NCBI RefSeq assembly: GCF_009557615.1
Contig: NZ_CP045652.1
Coordinates: forward strand, 1,240,001 to 1,304,000
Direction of reading: 5' to 3'
DNA from: Sphingobacteruim zhuxiongii
GTDB taxonomy: Bacteria > Bacteroidota > Bacteroidia > Sphingobacteriales > Sphingobacteriaceae
Length of the DNA stretch: 64,000 nucleotides
The notes under the pieces are model-generated. The model was not told the origin of the DNA and did not search any database. It worked only from the letters and a program-made list of their open reading frames with translations. Within the stretch, counting starts at the first letter, position 1, and each line of letters begins with the position of its first letter. The position numbers and the translations under genes were made by a program. Below are positions 2,706 through 11,495 of this stretch, piece after piece.

Positions 2706-3725
2706 TTAATCAGCATCAATTGCGGCGTAGAATTGTTCAACTCGTTTTTCAAGATCCGCTATAATTGCGCCTGAAAAGTCTTTTCCACCAAGTTGTATTG
2801 CATGGTATAAGGCACCGGGACTGAATACATTAACTTCCATTATTTTGTCGCCTACAATATCTAATCCGACCAAATACATGTTGTCGTTTTTTAACTTTTG
2901 GGACACTTGTTGCGTCAGGTTAAGTATGTCATCCGTAATTTCGGCGACTTGTGCTGTTGCGCCTTGATGAATATTACTGCGGATTTCATTCTCCGGTTGT
3001 ACTCGTTTGACGGCTGCGAAAACACCATCAACAATCAACGGTTCCCCATCCAGCATGAAGAAACGTATATCTCCTTTTGGTGCTTCTGGCAAGTATTCCT
3101 GCGCGATCACATAGCCGTCGCGAGCAATGGCCTCTACTGTTTGTTTCAGATTTTGGCGCTCATCATATTTGATCATGAATACGTTTTTTCCACCCGACCC
3201 TTTCAAAGGTTTTAAAATAATCTTGTTGTTTTGTTCTTCTAGAAACCGAAGTACATCTTCATGATTTCGAGTTACCATGGTTTTAGGCCTGACGGATTTT
3301 GGGAAATTCTCTAAATAAAGCTTATTATTTGCCTGAACTAGATTGTCTGGATCATTGATCACGAATCCACCATTTTTCTTAACAAGCTGTGCGAATTGAA
3401 TTCCGCTAGCTGCTGCCCAAGGACGATTGATCATGTCTAATGTTGGATCAAATCGAAGCCATAACACTTCGACATCTGCCAAATCGATACGCTGTTTTTT
3501 GCTATCTTTTAAATACTTCATGAGTTTCTCACCAGAATCAACTCGGCTCTCAGGTTCAACAACCCGACAATGTGCCAAGACACGTTGCTCATCCTCATAA
3601 ATAAAGTCAGCCAGCCCAATATATAATACGGTATGGTTACGCTCTAACGCCTTTAATGCAAGTATAGTTGTGGTGAATTTTTCTTCTTCTTTGTGGGTTT
3701 GATTGATTAAGAATGCTATTTTCAT
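2706..3725 (-). CDS. GshB-like ATP-grasp ligase
   Basis: ATP-grasp carboxylate-amine ligase resembling prokaryotic glutathione synthetase, 339 residues from the ATG at 3725 (an upstream in-frame start at 3752 would add nine residues before the natural MKIAFLINQ start). Visible: the nucleotide-binding segment KPLKGSGGKNVF near residues 172-183, EYLPEAPKGDIRFFMLDGEP near 210-230, and the metal-binding end GLDIVGDKIMEVNVFSPG near 283-300. It is the last gene of a three-gene minus-strand operon, 19 bp after the DUF1704 metallopeptidase and preceded by an N-formylglutamate amidohydrolase homologue. True GshB joins Gly to gamma-Glu-Cys; the operon suggests another peptide-like substrate. Family confidence is high, substrate unknown. 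Confidence 0.8.
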   Translation of the reverse strand: MKIAFLINQTHKEEEKFTTTILALKALERNHTVLYIGLADFIYEDEQRVLAHCRVVEPESRVDSGEKLMKYLKDSKKQRIDLADVEVLWLRFDPTLDMINRPWAAASGIQFAQLVKKNGGFVINDPDNLVQANNKLYLENFPKSVRPKTMVTRNHEDVLRFLEEQNNKIILKPLKGSGGKNVFMIKYDERQNLKQTVEAIARDGYVIAQEYLPEAPKGDIRFFMLDGEPLIVDGVFAAVKRVQPENEIRSNIHQGATAQVAEITDDILNLTQQVSQKLKNDNMYLVGLDIVGDKIMEVNVFSPGALYHAIQLGGKDFSGAIIADLEKRVEQFYAAIDAD

Positions 3726-3744
3726 ACAAATGCTCGGGTTTATA

Positions 3745-5577
3745 TTATTCAACTAGTTTAAATATGGATCCTTTTTGGATGACTTCTCGCCAGCGCGGTT
3801 TATATTCTTCGGACATATACCGAGGTATTAGTGCCGGCGGAATAAGTACACCACGCTGCAAAAGGTCTTTAATAATTGGTAGATAGTCTTTTCGTATTTT
3901 GCCCATCATTAACAATTCAACTTCATGACCTTCCTGCAAGTAGGTTAGAAGCTCGATGATGCCTTTAAGGTAAAGCGCGTCTTTGGTTAATCCTCCTCCT
4001 CGATAAACGCGCATCGTTAGATTAAATGCTGTTTCCGGAAGAAATTGATACTGATCGACCAAAAGATCGAACGTATCTGTAAAAGTATTCCCAAGAAGCA
4101 TATGATGTACGGCAATGACTCTTGCAGCAATAATACGCAGTCGATCGTTATTGAGTCCATTGACAATATATTCAGACAATACGGCTAAACCTTCTTGTAA
4201 TTCTTCATATCCCGGTACGCCTAGACTAAATAAATTCAGCGGTTGTTGTCGTCCGTTGAAGTAGGTCACCACGTGGGTTCCAATCTCATGCTGAATCAAG
4301 GCCATGGCTCTTCCTCTAGTCAACTTATACTCTTGGCTAATGTTCAATGCGCCGCGATTAACCATGACCCCTGAGATATCCTCGCGTACTCGGACAGGGC
4401 TATTAAATTCTGCGTTTTGTTTTTGAAGATAACGTATTTCTTCGCGGGCCATCTTCGCAAAGTCGTTCGCAGAGATAATATCGTCAGACTTCTTTGCAGT
4501 TTCTTCCGGCTCTGTCATCATTAATAGGGCCAATGCTGAATTATAAAGCTTCTCTGATACGTTTCCAAAGACTTGCAAACTGCCGTGCAAGAAATCTTCC
4601 TTCCCTCGGTCCGAAAGCATCGTTATCATGGAGTCCAGTTCGGCACGTTTATCTCTGAAAATATAGGCCATTGTAGGGTCGTAAATGTCTTCGATTCGCA
4701 GATTGTAAAGCCTGCGCTTAACAAGATCAGGATCTACATGCATAGGTCTGTACAGAAACTTTGGAGCCTTCCAGTATTTATCTTTTTTAAATTGAAGCCA
4801 AGCTTCATGCGAATTCAATGGCGTCACCATCAATAAGAAATCAAACTTCTTTGTTTCCTGCGCTAAAGCTTGATCAATTTCGACCATCATTGGAGTAAGC
4901 TCCTGATGTACGTTTATACGTTGTGCCGTAGCATTTAGATGAGTGTAAACTCGAAGGAATTCAAAAAATAATCGAGAGAGTGACTTTGCTAGCGATTCGC
5001 GGTATATTCGCATGAGAATTGGGAGGATATTCTCATTCTCGTCCATGTAGTTCCGTTTGATTGACAGACCGAGCAATAGAATTTGCTTGTTCTGTAGCTC
5101 TTTTTTAGAGAAAAGCTCATTTGTTTCCGGAGGATGCGGAATATGCTGATCCTTTTCTATTCCTACACTTATTTCAAGCGTCTCCATGCGAATGTTTTTC
5201 TCGAGATACTCAGCTAAGGGGAGGAGGTCTTTTTGCGCGACATGGATCTCTATATCGTCGCGCTGTCCATCCTCAGCGGTCCATACCTCGATTAGTAAAC
5301 AGGCTCCAAAATCCGCTGCCAATTTCTGAGCGATTGGACGTATCCATTCTTCTAAGGGAAAGTCCGAGCTCTTATATACCATACTGGCGTTCTCGGTCTT
5401 TGCTAAATCAACTAACATTTTATCTCTTTTTCCTGATTCTGGAACCCGATAGATAAAAATGTAGGGTACAATCTTATTGAATATGAATTTTCCAACATTC
5501 GGAATCTGATAATGAATCGCCGATCGCTTATTGATCGCATCTAGGATGCTCTGTAATGGTTTATTCTTTTCGATCAT
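3745..5577 (-). CDS. DUF1704 / 'QEGLA motif' metallopeptidase
   Basis: Protein of 610 residues with the two hallmarks of the DUF1704 family (often labelled flavohemoglobin expression-modulating QEGLA motif protein): HEIGTH at about residues 430-435 and QEGLA at 461-465. The two His plus the Glu of QEGLA are the expected zinc ligands; eukaryotic relatives include tubulin C-terminal tyrosine carboxypeptidases. The N-terminal 250 residues are a separate, less conserved alpha/beta region. There is no signal peptide, so it acts in the cytoplasm. I chose the ATG at 5577 over a TTG two codons upstream. The gene overlaps the amidohydrolase gene by 17 bp and precedes the ATP-grasp gene by 19 bp, so the three are almost surely co-translated. 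Confidence 0.85.
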   Translation of the reverse strand: MIEKNKPLQSILDAINKRSAIHYQIPNVGKFIFNKIVPYIFIYRVPESGKRDKMLVDLAKTENASMVYKSSDFPLEEWIRPIAQKLAADFGACLLIEVWTAEDGQRDDIEIHVAQKDLLPLAEYLEKNIRMETLEISVGIEKDQHIPHPPETNELFSKKELQNKQILLLGLSIKRNYMDENENILPILMRIYRESLAKSLSRLFFEFLRVYTHLNATAQRINVHQELTPMMVEIDQALAQETKKFDFLLMVTPLNSHEAWLQFKKDKYWKAPKFLYRPMHVDPDLVKRRLYNLRIEDIYDPTMAYIFRDKRAELDSMITMLSDRGKEDFLHGSLQVFGNVSEKLYNSALALLMMTEPEETAKKSDDIISANDFAKMAREEIRYLQKQNAEFNSPVRVREDISGVMVNRGALNISQEYKLTRGRAMALIQHEIGTHVVTYFNGRQQPLNLFSLGVPGYEELQEGLAVLSEYIVNGLNNDRLRIIAARVIAVHHMLLGNTFTDTFDLLVDQYQFLPETAFNLTMRVYRGGGLTKDALYLKGIIELLTYLQEGHEVELLMMGKIRKDYLPIIKDLLQRGVLIPPALIPRYMSEEYKPRWREVIQKGSIFKLVE

Positions 5578-6346
5578 TGTCAAAATAATTCGTTAGAACT
5601 TTTAGCGAATTCAATAGCAATTGCTTGTTTGCCGTAATTTTGCTCGGGTCGGGAGCTCCGGTCCATTCATCCATGAAGTCCTTGCGGAATTCGATTGAAA
5701 CCACACAGCCCGATTCGCCGTATGTTGAATTCAGATACCGATTGAGGTATCCTCCTTTAAATTTAACGTTTTCTCGAATATCGATTGGCTCTCCGTCCAT
5801 TGTTTCTTGTTGCCAGCAAGTCATAAATGTGGATACGAGCTCACGCCATTTAGGTTGCACATAGGCCGTGCCTAAATTTATCTGAGGGTTTGCTTGCTTA
5901 TCGATTAATTCGTGAGGCCCTTCTCTCTTAGAATTGTAACTATGTATATCGAAGACAAAAAAATAGCCGTGTTGTTCTATCGTATGTTTAATCAGCGAAT
6001 CAATTTCTTGATATACGCTAGCATACTCCTTTTGCAAGATGGCGATTCGAGCCTCAGGCAGCTTATTCCATACCTTTAGACCCCATGCTTGAGCCGGAGC
6101 AAGATATATTGCATTTTCTAAATCTCGATTAATGTCAAGTTGAAATCTTGATGTACCGACAATGAATTGATTGATGGGTAATTCGGCAAAGGCGGCAGTA
6201 AATGGATCCTCTTCGCGCAATCGTTCCGCATCAGAGAGCAACATATAGGGAAGAAGTTCATCTGCCAGCTGATGTCCGTCATGTAATGCAAAGGCCCAAA
6301 AAGGACTTTCAACTTGGTTGATGAAGTATTTTGTCATTTGATTCAT
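5561..6346 (-). CDS. N-formylglutamate amidohydrolase family protein
   Basis: Protein of 261 residues in the N-formylglutamate amidohydrolase (HutG-type) superfamily, zinc-dependent hydrolases of N-acylated glutamate or similar acyl-amino acids. Visible: an early HDGHQLADELLP segment, a TSRFQLDINRD segment typical of the substrate site, and FVFDIHSYNSKR in the middle, where Asp and His are probable metal or catalytic residues. No histidine-degradation genes are nearby; instead it is the first gene of an operon with a DUF1704 peptidase and an ATP-grasp ligase, so the classical Hut role is unlikely. A second ATG at 6337 is possible. The 148 bp to the divergent DoxX gene hold the promoters but I see no clear boxes. 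Confidence 0.8.
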   Translation of the reverse strand: MNQMTKYFINQVESPFWAFALHDGHQLADELLPYMLLSDAERLREEDPFTAAFAELPINQFIVGTSRFQLDINRDLENAIYLAPAQAWGLKVWNKLPEARIAILQKEYASVYQEIDSLIKHTIEQHGYFFVFDIHSYNSKREGPHELIDKQANPQINLGTAYVQPKWRELVSTFMTCWQQETMDGEPIDIRENVKFKGGYLNRYLNSTYGESGCVVSIEFRKDFMDEWTGAPDPSKITANKQLLLNSLKVLTNYFDNDRKE

Positions 6347-7853: not shown

Positions 7854-10106
7854 TTAATAGTTAAGCGATAATCCAACACCAAATCCCATGTCGGAATCAT
7901 AGTGAGTTCGGATACCCATATGCCGCGTTAAGATATATTTTAAATCACCCATATACTCTTTATCGGAGTTAACCATAAAACCAGCTCTAATTCTTTTAGA
8001 AATAGGAATATCTTCACGCATCAACTGTAATCGTAGATTTCCATCATGATAAACTTCTGCTTGAAATCGTATTAACATAGGTAGCGTATAGGCAAATCCA
8101 ATTGACATTAAAGCGCGGTCATTTTTACTGTTTTTCTGTCCAAAGAGATTAGTTTCTGGACCATGTGTTTCCATATTTCTATACCGCCAATCAAATCCTA
8201 TAAAAGGCATAAACCATTGCATGCGATCGGTAAATCGGCCTATATGGGTTTCAACTTCATAACCATGCATAGCCTGATAGCCTAAGCGCCACTCGCTTGA
8301 TAGCTGCCATCTCGTATTCTGTAGCATGAGTTCTCCATCATTACCATTGGATGCAAAGTCATTCTGTATCATAAAATGGGGCATATTACTTTCCTGTTGA
8401 AGCATTCGGTAAGCTTTATCTTTATGGAGTAGTTTTGGATTCTCCGGCTGATCCTCAGTGCTAAACACGCGGTTCATTCCCGCCATCATGTGATAGAGTA
8501 TATGACAATGAAAAAACCAATCTCCATCAACATTCGATTCGAACTCAATCGTGTCGGTTTCCATCGGCATAATATCCAATACATTCTTTAAAGGAGCGTG
8601 ATCACCTTGTCCATTGAGTACACGAAAATCATGTCCGTGTAAGTGCATAGGATGTCGCATCATTGAATTGTTGTAAAGAACAATACGTAGCGCTTCCCCT
8701 TTTTTGATTTTTATCTTATCAACTTCAGAAAGAACCTTGTTATCCATGCTCCATACATATCGATTCATGTTACCCGTTAATTCGAATTTTAGTTCCCGAA
8801 CCGTAGTTCCTTCTGGGAATTTTGTCGAAGTAGGAGAACGGAGCATACCATAATTTAGCGTGACAATTTTAGGACTGATGTTATCAGATTGGTTATGTGT
8901 ATCGCTGTGCATCTCTCCGTGTTTTGCAGAGGTCCTGTGATCTTTATGCCCGCTTGCCGATTCTACAGTTTCTGGATACATGACGGTATTCATATCCATC
9001 TTTTGCAAAGACATCTTCATACCCATATCATCTAGGTCGCCGTTCATCTTCATCATTGCATTCATCATCTTCATCCCCTCGAAATATTTTAATTTAGGGA
9101 GAGGAGCGACAAGCTGTTTGATGCCATCGCCTAAGTAAATTGATGTGTTTTTTGTGCGATCTTCCGGGGTTGCCATAAACTCATATGCGAATCCATTCTC
9201 TGGTATTTCAACAACAACATCGTAAGTTTCTGAAACAGCAATCAACAGGCGGTCTACTTTTACGGGTTCTACATCGTTTCCGTCGTTAGCAACAACAGTT
9301 ATCTTTCCACCAGCATAGGTCAACCAAAAATAGGAAGATGCGCCTGCATTGATTACGCGTAGACGAACTTTGTCGCCAGCTTTAAAATCCTTAAAGGATT
9401 GCTCGCTCTGACCGTTGATAAGGAATCGGTCGTAGTACACATCACTGACGTCCATCGCTAACATACGTTTCCATTCATTGGCGACTTTTGTTTTGAAATG
9501 ACCCGCTTTTATGGCCTCAGCATAACTCTGTGTTGCATTCTTTTTAATGGCAAACCAATCATTCGCGTTGTGCAACATTCTATGCACATTGTCAGGATTT
9601 AGATCTGTCCATTCACTCAGAACAATAGGGATGGTCGGTAAGTCGTCAATACCCTTCCTGTTTGTTTTATCTTCGTCTTTTTTCTTCAAGACTAAGGCTC
9701 CATACATTCCAATTTGCTCTTGCATTCCAGTATGGCTGTGGTACCAATGCGTTCCGTTTTGAATTATAGGAAAGCGATAGATATAGGTACTTCGAGGCTT
9801 AATCGGCATCTGCGTTAGAAAGGGAACACCATCTTCAGGATTGGGGAGGTAGATTCCATGCCAATGTAGGGAAGTAGGTTCGTCCATTTCGTTGTGAACA
9901 TGTATCTCCGCCGTATCTCCTTCGGTAAATGTAAGGGTTGGCATCGGAATCATACCATTGACCGCGATAGCGCGTTTTGTTTTATTTCCATAGTTGACTA
10001 GCGTGTCCTTAACATACAAGTCGTACTTAACAACCATTTGTCCAAATAATGAAAGGCTGAAAAGCAGTAGCACGCTAAGTATCGAAGAGGTTCTTAGCTT
10101 TTTCAT
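7854..10106 (-). CDS. Multicopper oxidase (CopA-type) fused to a CopB-like barrel
   Basis: Exported protein of 750 residues with a Sec signal peptide (about residues 1-22). All four copper-ligand clusters are present: HWHG near 81, HWYHSH near 122, HPMHLHGHDF near 489 and HCHILYHMMAGM near 533. A Met-rich stretch (about 342-375, repeated MxM) and a His-rich stretch (about 385-410) should bind Cu(I)/Cu(II) before oxidation. After about residue 600 the sequence changes to alternating aromatic/polar strands ending in GVGLSLNY, like the outer-membrane barrel of CopB copper-resistance proteins. A usual CopA ends near 600, so this is a CopA-CopB fusion that would anchor the oxidase to the outer membrane. 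It sits 42 bp downstream of the HMA-DUF3347 gene. Likely role: periplasmic copper detoxification. Confidence 0.85.
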   Translation of the reverse strand: MKKLRTSSILSVLLLFSLSLFGQMVVKYDLYVKDTLVNYGNKTKRAIAVNGMIPMPTLTFTEGDTAEIHVHNEMDEPTSLHWHGIYLPNPEDGVPFLTQMPIKPRSTYIYRFPIIQNGTHWYHSHTGMQEQIGMYGALVLKKKDEDKTNRKGIDDLPTIPIVLSEWTDLNPDNVHRMLHNANDWFAIKKNATQSYAEAIKAGHFKTKVANEWKRMLAMDVSDVYYDRFLINGQSEQSFKDFKAGDKVRLRVINAGASSYFWLTYAGGKITVVANDGNDVEPVKVDRLLIAVSETYDVVVEIPENGFAYEFMATPEDRTKNTSIYLGDGIKQLVAPLPKLKYFEGMKMMNAMMKMNGDLDDMGMKMSLQKMDMNTVMYPETVESASGHKDHRTSAKHGEMHSDTHNQSDNISPKIVTLNYGMLRSPTSTKFPEGTTVRELKFELTGNMNRYVWSMDNKVLSEVDKIKIKKGEALRIVLYNNSMMRHPMHLHGHDFRVLNGQGDHAPLKNVLDIMPMETDTIEFESNVDGDWFFHCHILYHMMAGMNRVFSTEDQPENPKLLHKDKAYRMLQQESNMPHFMIQNDFASNGNDGELMLQNTRWQLSSEWRLGYQAMHGYEVETHIGRFTDRMQWFMPFIGFDWRYRNMETHGPETNLFGQKNSKNDRALMSIGFAYTLPMLIRFQAEVYHDGNLRLQLMREDIPISKRIRAGFMVNSDKEYMGDLKYILTRHMGIRTHYDSDMGFGVGLSLNY

Positions 10107-10148
10107 AATTTTCCTTAAGGAATAAATAGAATGTCTGTGAGTTTAGTT

Positions 10149-11036
10149 TTAGATTTTTTCTTTTACTTCACCACAGGTCATCATTTTTGAACCGTAATAA
10201 GGATTTTTAATCTCTTCTTCTAAACTCAACCAATGAGCACCTTTGCCAGCGTTTGCCATCGGACAAAATTGTAAATATAAGGGGATTGTAGTTTTCGAAA
10301 CCTTTGCTAGCGAATAGATCTGGTTCGATAGGTTCATGAAGCTATTTCTTTGCTTGGTCAGATCTGTCGCCTTTTCAATTGCAGTAGTTTCATTTTCTAA
10401 ACTTCTTATAACCTTCATCCATAGCTCATGAACCGAAGTGTTAAGCGTTGACATATCGATCGAAGTGATGCTCTTTTTCAAGGTCTGTGCGGCACTTTGA
10501 GCTGATTTACTGTCAGATGCAAGCAATGCGTTTTTAAGGTTGATATAGCTCTTAAAAACAGGGTCTAATTGATTGTTTGATTCAGATGATTGTGTTTGTT
10601 GATTTTGAACGGTATTATTTTGATTGTTGCTCGCATCTTGATGATGCTGGTGCCCGGTCTGATCGTGTACAATAGGATCGTCTGTTGCTATCGTATGAGC
10701 ACGGTCATAGCGACAACATTCATGCAATTTCGCATATACATCGTCGGGAGCTCGGAAAGACTGGTTATCATATCCGGCTTGGGCAATCTTCTTCAAAATT
10801 GCTTCTTCCGATGTTTTGTTAGCGTCAAACGTCAAAACGGCCATATGGGTATCTTCATCCCATTCTGCTTTGGCTATCTTGGGTTCATAAGCTGCGGTTT
10901 CTATTGTCTTTTTACACATCCCACAATTACCATTGATTTCAACGGTACTCGTTACTGCATTCTTAATTTGCGCTTGGGAAGAAATCGTGAACAACACGAT
11001 AAAGGTAGAGGCGATTAATGCCTTTAAATTTTTCAT
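10149..11036 (-). CDS. HMA + DUF3347 exported copper-associated protein
   Basis: Exported protein of 295 residues with a Sec signal peptide. Residues 28-95 form a heavy-metal-associated domain whose metal site is GNCGMCKKT (CxxC). A segment LHECCRYDR follows, then a low-complexity His/Gln/Asn linker (about 120-155). The C-terminal 140 residues are DUF3347 (FKSYINLKNALLASD, SIDMSTLNTSVHELWMK, LQFCPMANAGKGAHWLS). DUF3347 proteins recur beside Cus/Cop genes in Bacteroidota and probably bind or pass on periplasmic copper. Its location between the multicopper oxidase and a Cys/His-rich protein supports a copper-chaperone role. Confidence 0.85.
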   Translation of the reverse strand: MKNLKALIASTFIVLFTISSQAQIKNAVTSTVEINGNCGMCKKTIETAAYEPKIAKAEWDEDTHMAVLTFDANKTSEEAILKKIAQAGYDNQSFRAPDDVYAKLHECCRYDRAHTIATDDPIVHDQTGHQHHQDASNNQNNTVQNQQTQSSESNNQLDPVFKSYINLKNALLASDSKSAQSAAQTLKKSITSIDMSTLNTSVHELWMKVIRSLENETTAIEKATDLTKQRNSFMNLSNQIYSLAKVSKTTIPLYLQFCPMANAGKGAHWLSLEEEIKNPYYGSKMMTCGEVKEKI

Positions 11037-11114
11037 TTCAAATATTTTTAAATAATCAAACTATCAAGCGTTTACGGGCTTGATTTCCAAATAATAAATC
11101 GAACGAGGAATTGA

Positions 11115-11495
11115 TTATCCGATTTTAGGCGGAATAAAAATACTTGAGAATCCATTCGATACAGTGAATTGCTGAAATTCTGTATTTAAGGATTTGATTG
11201 TATAGGAGGGAACGTCAAACTCGAATGAAAAGTTGTTGATTTGCAGGTGCGACAGCATAGGAATTATGCAGCAACAAGGACTATTTCCCTGACAACCACT
11301 GGAACCATCCGTAGATTTTTCGATAGGTTTACTGTCTTTGTCACAGCAATGATGCCTCTTTTCGTTTTTATCTTCGTTTGTTGTATGTTCACATTTTTCA
11401 GTTTCTTGTTGTTCATGATGCATAGCACAAGCTACACTCTGCTTGGGAAGCAGGAATGACAACAAAAGAAAACCTATGAGAACAATGTATTTCAT
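11115..11495 (-). CDS. Small exported Cys/His-rich protein, putative metal binder
   Basis: Protein of 126 residues with a Sec signal peptide (cleavage near residue 22, VACAMHHE). Residues 22-80 are rich in Cys, His, Glu and Lys (CEHT, RHHCCDKD, GCQGNSPCCC), an array of potential copper or zinc ligands. The C-terminus is the motif SIFIPPKIG, which I associate with small proteins in Bacteroidota copper loci. It lies 78 bp upstream of the DUF3347 gene on the same strand. A weak 6-bp hairpin at 11064-11083 lies between them. Likely a periplasmic metal buffer; the specific function is inference. Confidence 0.65.
   Translation of the reverse strand: MKYIVLIGFLLLSFLLPKQSVACAMHHEQQETEKCEHTTNEDKNEKRHHCCDKDSKPIEKSTDGSSGCQGNSPCCCIIPMLSHLQINNFSFEFDVPSYTIKSLNTEFQQFTVSNGFSSIFIPPKIG

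Follow-up and report, generated by a model that had tools for sequence, protein, structure and literature searches.

Three adjacent minus-strand genes of Sphingobacteruim zhuxiongii form a conserved enzyme module, which was analyzed here within a stretch of 64,000 nucleotides (contig NZ_CP045652.1, positions 1,240,001 to 1,304,000; hereafter the window, whose own numbering is used throughout). They encode an N-formylglutamate amidohydrolase-like metallohydrolase (FGase, 5561–6346), a metallopeptidase of the QEGLA/DUF1704 (MATCAP) family (QEGLA, 3745–5577) and a GshB-like ATP-grasp ligase (2706–3725). This trio is a genuine conserved module, clustering far beyond chance. With a modest preference over all other readings taken together, we consider that it serves both the synthesis and the trimming of a small peptide or acyl-amino acid of the Glu/Asp type, probably other than glutathione.

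Co-occurrence, gene order and phylogeny

The distribution of the trio was analyzed in 395 Bacteroidota genomes and for 143 QEGLA genes in 140 loci. Within the Bacteroidota sample QEGLA is present in 19 genomes, the ligase in 21 (E <= 1e-15) and both in 18. The ligase is therefore found in 18/19 QEGLA-bearing genomes vs. 3/376 others (Fisher p about 4e-27, genome relatedness ignored). Trio-type FGases occur in 16/395 genomes, 15 of which harbor QEGLA (Fisher p about 1e-22, relatedness again ignored). One genome of this sample, G274, encodes a trio-type FGase (38% identity, E 3e-53) without QEGLA or ligase.

On the locus level, 118 of the 143 QEGLA genes are non-solo, and in 115 of these 118 cases a ligase gene of the same orientation lies no more than 2.5 kb away. 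FGase-QEGLA-ligase is the most frequent gene order, observed at 76 loci. Operon-linked loci are distributed over 13 phyla, namely Bacteroidota, Balneolota, Calditrichota, Planctomycetota, Verrucomicrobiota, Kiritimatiellota, Acidobacteriota, Gemmatimonadota, Myxococcota, Thermodesulfobacteriota, Campylobacterota, Pseudomonadota and Ca. Poribacteria. Selection of the 80 named loci relied on their resemblance to a query of the operon type, and close relatives and duplicates are frequent among them; the genome samples are less biased.

In a quick tree of the QEGLA proteins, 22 solo genes are clearly set apart as a group of their own (SH-aLRT 100), whereas all operon-linked genes lie in the other half. 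The solo clade is mostly proteobacterial with one member from Bacteroidota, and neither partner gene is present there. The low linkage in Pseudomonadota, where the ligase was found at only 15/40 examined QEGLA loci, is explained by this separate clade. Three short solo genes (L197, L201, L202) fall within the operon-linked half. The initial annotation had described the trio as recurring in other bacteria; this recurrence is indeed wide and tight, but is confined to one half of the QEGLA family.

Some loci are more complex. Double clusters of the order FGase-QEGLA-ligase-ligase-QEGLA-ligase are present in Planctomycetes (L112, L114, L122), and their two QEGLA types sit on different branches of the tree. 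Extra ligase copies were found at L053, L054, L112, L114, L138 and L145, and multiple copies of the ligase would suit a stepwise assembly. In Cesiribacter andamanensis (L110:9164-10227) the ligase is split over two adjacent open reading frames (ORFs), by a frameshift or a sequencing error.

Architecture of the locus in the window

All three genes start at conserved ATG codons. Mechanically derived ORFs open at upstream TTG codons, yet most homologues align from the ATGs. QEGLA comprises 610 amino acids from the ATG at 5577 (612 from the TTG at 5583), and the ligase comprises 339 amino acids from the ATG at 3725. With these starts, the FGase and QEGLA genes overlap by 17 bp and a gap of 19 bp separates the QEGLA stop codon from the ligase start. 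This arrangement, as well as the three enzyme families, had been proposed by the initial annotation and is borne out by the coordinates and by Pfam scores far over their cut-offs.

Family searches in the window genome revealed QEGLA and FGase as single-copy genes, and the sole further GSH-S_ATP match is a RimK-type protein. The nearest named relative, judged by the QEGLA catalytic domain, is S. humi (93%). Scans for sigma-70 promoters and terminators gave no signal above that of shuffled sequences.

The QEGLA metallopeptidase

QEGLA of the window matches PF08014 with 298.9 bits (cut-off 27) and is therefore a member of the MATCAP/DUF1704 family. This match is limited to residues 264–592. The catalytic domain (3808–4875) is supported by a family alignment and is covered by TIGR02421 at residues 237–592; here, the protein stays below the equivalog cut-off (330.7 vs. 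338.65 bits), which is passed by QEGLA of the solo clade and by a Photobacterium fusion protein. The HEIGTH zinc-binding motif (4273–4290) has its H, E and H invariant in 15 diverse members and in 93+ long QEGLA proteins. In the downstream QEGLA motif (4183–4197), QEG is invariant; it aligns with the EEG motif of human MATCAP1 and presumably provides Glu as the third metal ligand.

The QEGLA profile matches the structure of human MATCAP1 (7z5g) with an E-value of 1.1e-12. For the human MATCAP enzymes the HExxxH metal motif and a carboxypeptidase activity have been described (PMC10499314), and a carboxypeptidase activity is predicted for bacterial QEGLA by family membership. The tubulin metallocarboxypeptidases (MATCAP/TMCP; PF08014; human KIAA0895L) share with it the catalytic domain family, HExxxH and the downstream EG-containing motif. 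In contrast to these, QEGLA of the window is encoded next to ligase and FGase genes in a bacterial operon, has no tubulin to act on and carries an extra, dead FGase domain. A phage origin was considered and rejected: the sole phage record matching QEGLA, Pseudomonas phage Y1 (OQ572403.1, 63530–64588), does so only across the catalytic domain, at 28.5% identity.

The FGase, a dead FGase domain and recurrent fusions

The FGase (261 amino acids) belongs to the PF05013 superfamily (65.8 bits, cut-off 28.9; E 8e-18). Its active site is intact, and residues H22, E45, E46, D133, H135 and E219 are invariant in 38 homologues. The AlphaFold model (pLDDT 95.8) has 2q7s as best PDB match (TM 0.70), followed by 2odf and then by carboxypeptidases. 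HutG (PF05013; 2q7s, 2odf) has the fold and the active-site residues in common with it. However, the window FGase reaches only 21.7 of the 278.75 bits of the HutG equivalog TIGR02017 and is therefore not HutG; it is linked to ligase and QEGLA rather than to genes of histidine degradation.

The initial annotation recognized QEGLA correctly as a zinc peptidase by its HEIGTH and QEGLA motifs, but overlooked a second domain. The N-terminus of long QEGLA proteins (4879–5577 in the window) is a degenerate FGase domain which has lost the catalytic residues. Its approximately 230 residues match the stand-alone FGase in hhalign (Prob 93.7, P 2e-7), with probabilities of 0.1–0.4 for the controls (vs. 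ligase, catalytic domain and a shuffled profile). Against the fused and short-type FGases this increases to Prob 98.8 (P 1.1e-16, 239 columns), and the N-domain profile directly detects the second half of the FGase region in 7/7 fused proteins (26–57 bits). The AlphaFold model of the domain (pLDDT 90.3) retrieves M14 carboxypeptidases, which are those also hit by the FGase model, AstE (1yw6), FGase (2q7s) and also related phosphorylase-type folds in Foldseek; the TM-scores are modest (about 0.45), which would be expected of a domain that has shrunk. The catalytic blocks HDGH, REEDP, SRFEVDLNR and DIHSYN have no counterpart in the alignment of the N-domain.

At the very place of this dead domain, proteins of other lineages harbor a fused FGase. 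Such FGase-QEGLA fusions are present at L052, L200, L203-L206 and L211 and in Photobacterium. The key FGase residues are complete or changed at one position in 5/7 fusions (L203, L211 and L204: one position each) and likewise in the Photobacterium fusion. The fusion at L200 (4998-6980) has a decaying FGase half with H135->N, E45->F and E219->Q in the alignment, a decay which apparently took place separately from that of the long-QEGLA clade. A fused FGase with its active site preserved, or a dead fused FGase together with a separate active one, therefore represent alternative arrangements of one relationship. It follows from the fusions that the FGase and QEGLA steps belong together.

Displacement of the FGase and neighboring genes

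In one Bacteroidota clade (L061, L062, L064, L132, L137, L138, L142, L145; support 98) the FGase is missing at the locus. Here, a protein of the AstE/aspartoacylase family (PF24827) adjoins the ligase, mostly on the same strand, and L207 is a second case, so that such a replacement took place at least twice. FGase and AstE/aspartoacylase families both hydrolyze N-acyl acidic amino acids, so that the replacement narrows the chemistry of this step. Furthermore, in eight flavobacterial loci the ligase gene is directly preceded by a gene for a dicarboxylate/Glu/Asp-type symporter (PF00375), and amino-acid permease genes are found near several other trio loci.

A hint toward osmotic physiology comes from two further contexts. 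In Magnetococcales (L123:7107-13323; L214, L216), QEGLA and ligase are immediately followed by an rloABC-like set of a retropepsin-like gene (PF05618), an inactive transglutaminase-7TM gene (PF14400/PF14402) and an ATP-grasp gene; a retropepsin is near the trio only at these loci. The Pseudomonas counterparts RloA-RloB-RloC control hypo-osmotic tolerance (PMC12239564). In Photobacterium damselae, the consecutive tags RS17020/RS17025 are induced when salinity is low, the gene annotated as GshB by 38-fold and the one annotated as QEGLA by 27.5-fold (PMC10308900). Their adjacent tags suggest that this pair is the same operon, and in a Photobacterium relative the ligase overlaps an FGase-QEGLA fusion. 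The 38-fold induced 'GshB' is probably the trio ligase rather than a true glutathione synthetase.

Several other neighbors were considered and dismissed. A 70-amino-acid ORF upstream of the S. meliloti trio, a candidate substrate or carrier peptide, occurs on many other rhizobial plasmids and lies far from the trio in S. sojae. The DUF413 gene beside the Photobacterium fusion belongs to a separate known family and adjoins a LysR gene; LysR neighbors at several proteobacterial loci are confounded by this LysR/DUF413 locus and were not used as evidence. Glutaminyl cyclase as a trio partner is restricted to L136, where a glutamine cyclotransferase gene (PF05096, L136:10161-11126) overlaps the 3' end of the ligase and no FGase is in the neighborhood.

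In the window itself, a plus-strand gene for a YihY/BrkB-family membrane protein (1643–2704) ends 1 base before the stop codon of the ligase, and this convergent pair is likewise present in other Sphingobacteriaceae. Upstream of the trio (7854–11495) lie a multicopper-oxidase-like gene, a heavy-metal-associated-domain-like gene and a small secreted Cys/His-rich ORF, which by eye look like a copper-handling cluster.

The ligase and glutathione

The ligase (PF02955, 161 bits) resembles GshB (PDB 1gsa, E 3e-32) in the ATP-grasp fold, the overall sequence and the ATP-binding core. The NCBI subfamily model PRK12458 (NF009110) labels trio ligases 'glutathione synthetase', and as a consequence this name spreads in annotations. 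The label would fit a standard synthetase of glutathione (or of a similar thiol), accompanied by hydrolases which are unrelated or thiol-degrading. In line with this, the ligases of short-type and Photobacterium loci pass the GshB equivalog cut-off NF003573, and 7/27 other trio hosts encode a GCS2-type (PF04107) protein.

However, the window ligase stays below every glutathione synthetase cut-off (375.7 of 408 for NF009110, 209 of 272 for NF003573 and 195 of 299 for TIGR01380) and, in contrast to GshB, is linked to two hydrolases. Family searches of the window genome with PF04262 and PF04107 for gshA gave no match, and PF04107 is missing from the remaining 20/27 hosts. Near the C-terminal Mg/substrate loop, 97/100 trio ligases contain the motif SPG, vs. 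SPT in GshB of E. coli. A comparison is offered by S. meliloti 2011, which harbors FGase-QEGLA-ligase on pSymB (1122948–1126749). Disruption of its chromosomal gshB (SMc00419) leaves no glutathione detectable by HPLC (PMC7063052) although the pSymB trio is present. Therefore, the pSymB ligase did not replace GshB under the conditions of that experiment. Taken together, the trio ligase is probably not a plain glutathione synthetase, which the initial annotation had named as the outcome that would speak against its proposal; on the strength of the missing gshA families and the S. meliloti mutant this explanation is disfavored and we consider it very improbable.

Proposed pathway and alternatives

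One amide ligase and two metallohydrolases which are nearly always together most simply act on the same class of molecule. A make-and-trim system, as suggested by the initial annotation, is the natural reading of such a set. The amino-acid transporters and the replacement by AstE/aspartoacylase make the context lean toward a small metabolite over a protein tail. For the directions of the reactions, for the substrate and for the function of the dead domain, we infer the following scheme. The three genes would constitute one dedicated cytoplasmic enzyme module, in which the ligase, probably other than a glutathione synthetase, would activate a carboxylate as acyl-phosphate and join an amino acid to it, a chemistry derived from its family. 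QEGLA, as a zincin-type carboxypeptidase-like enzyme, may take off the C-terminal residue of the ligase product, and the FGase would take an N-acyl or terminal group off an acidic amino acid. A probable role of the dead domain is to hold or recognize the shared substrate, or to serve as a docking site for the active FGase.

Several points weigh against this scheme. A protein tail is the target of the sole characterized relatives of QEGLA (PMC10499314), and the hydrolases and the ligase could act on different molecules. The symporter is confined to one Bacteroidota family, where plain synteny is a possible explanation, and the S. meliloti gshB mutant counts only if the trio is expressed under the conditions of the glutathione assay.

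The protein-tail relatives lead to an alternative, a bacterial counterpart of the tubulin code or of RimK/RimB, in which the ligase would add amino acids to one particular protein at its C-terminus, a step that QEGLA, together with the FGase, would reverse. QEGLA shares its family with tubulin carboxypeptidases and deglutamylases (PMC10499314), RimK as an ATP-grasp relative adds Glu to a protein tail, and the Magnetococcales trio stands beside rloA-rloB-rloC-like genes. RimK/RimB and RloA-RloB-RloC (PMC12239564) likewise pair an ATP-grasp ligase with peptidases. In contrast to them, the trio has zinc hydrolases instead of an aspartic protease and a ligase of the GshB type rather than the RimK type; RimK models score well below cut-off for the window ligase. 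Moreover, the trio neighborhoods examined contain no conserved candidate substrate protein, the FGase and its stand-in AstE are small-molecule hydrolase families and amino-acid transporter genes are close by, so that an analogue of this kind appears unlikely. These transporters would also fit a catabolic or salvage route, in which QEGLA and FGase would open imported peptides or acyl-amino acids, while the ligase would do no more than conjugate or recycle a product. The patchy occurrence (19/395 Bacteroidota) and the location of the rhizobial trio on large replicons point in the same direction. For catabolism alone an ATP-dependent ligase would be superfluous, yet no partner accompanies non-solo QEGLA more faithfully than the ligase, which renders such a route decidedly unlikely.

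Synthesis and trimming of a small acidic peptide or acyl-amino acid hence remains the preferred reading. A more far-reaching version, for which we hold only a tentative and rather doubtful position, is a widespread, so far overlooked bacterial pathway which makes and trims a Glu/Asp-containing peptide metabolite, possibly osmotic-linked, is concealed in databases under the name 'glutathione synthase', uses the dead FGase domain as a holding or docking module and is a cousin of the ancestors of the tubulin carboxypeptidases.

Relation to earlier work and significance

Modules of an ATP-grasp ligase with peptidases are already known as a kind. The systems in the survey of ATP-grasp amidoligases and peptidases by Iyer et al. 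in 2009 belong to this general class, an amide ligase with linked peptidases, and that survey reportedly may already list GshB-like/DUF1704/FGase neighborhoods; the co-occurrence of the trio has thus probably been noted before. The dead FGase domain is not known to be among its contents. No earlier description of the trio was found in the open literature searched, which did not cover this survey. New here are the dead domain on QEGLA, the repeated FGase-QEGLA fusions, the displacement by AstE and the evidence against glutathione.

The dead domain, the fused FGases and the replacement by AstE tell which step goes with QEGLA. The low-salinity transcriptome study of P. damselae ranks the annotated GshB among its top low-salinity genes and treats it as glutathione and virulence biology (PMC10308900), and the view of a separate module would correct this reading. 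Since S. meliloti 2011 is a laboratory model which harbors the trio, the question is directly testable. The module points to an undiscovered metabolite or modification, which is common to at least 13 phyla.

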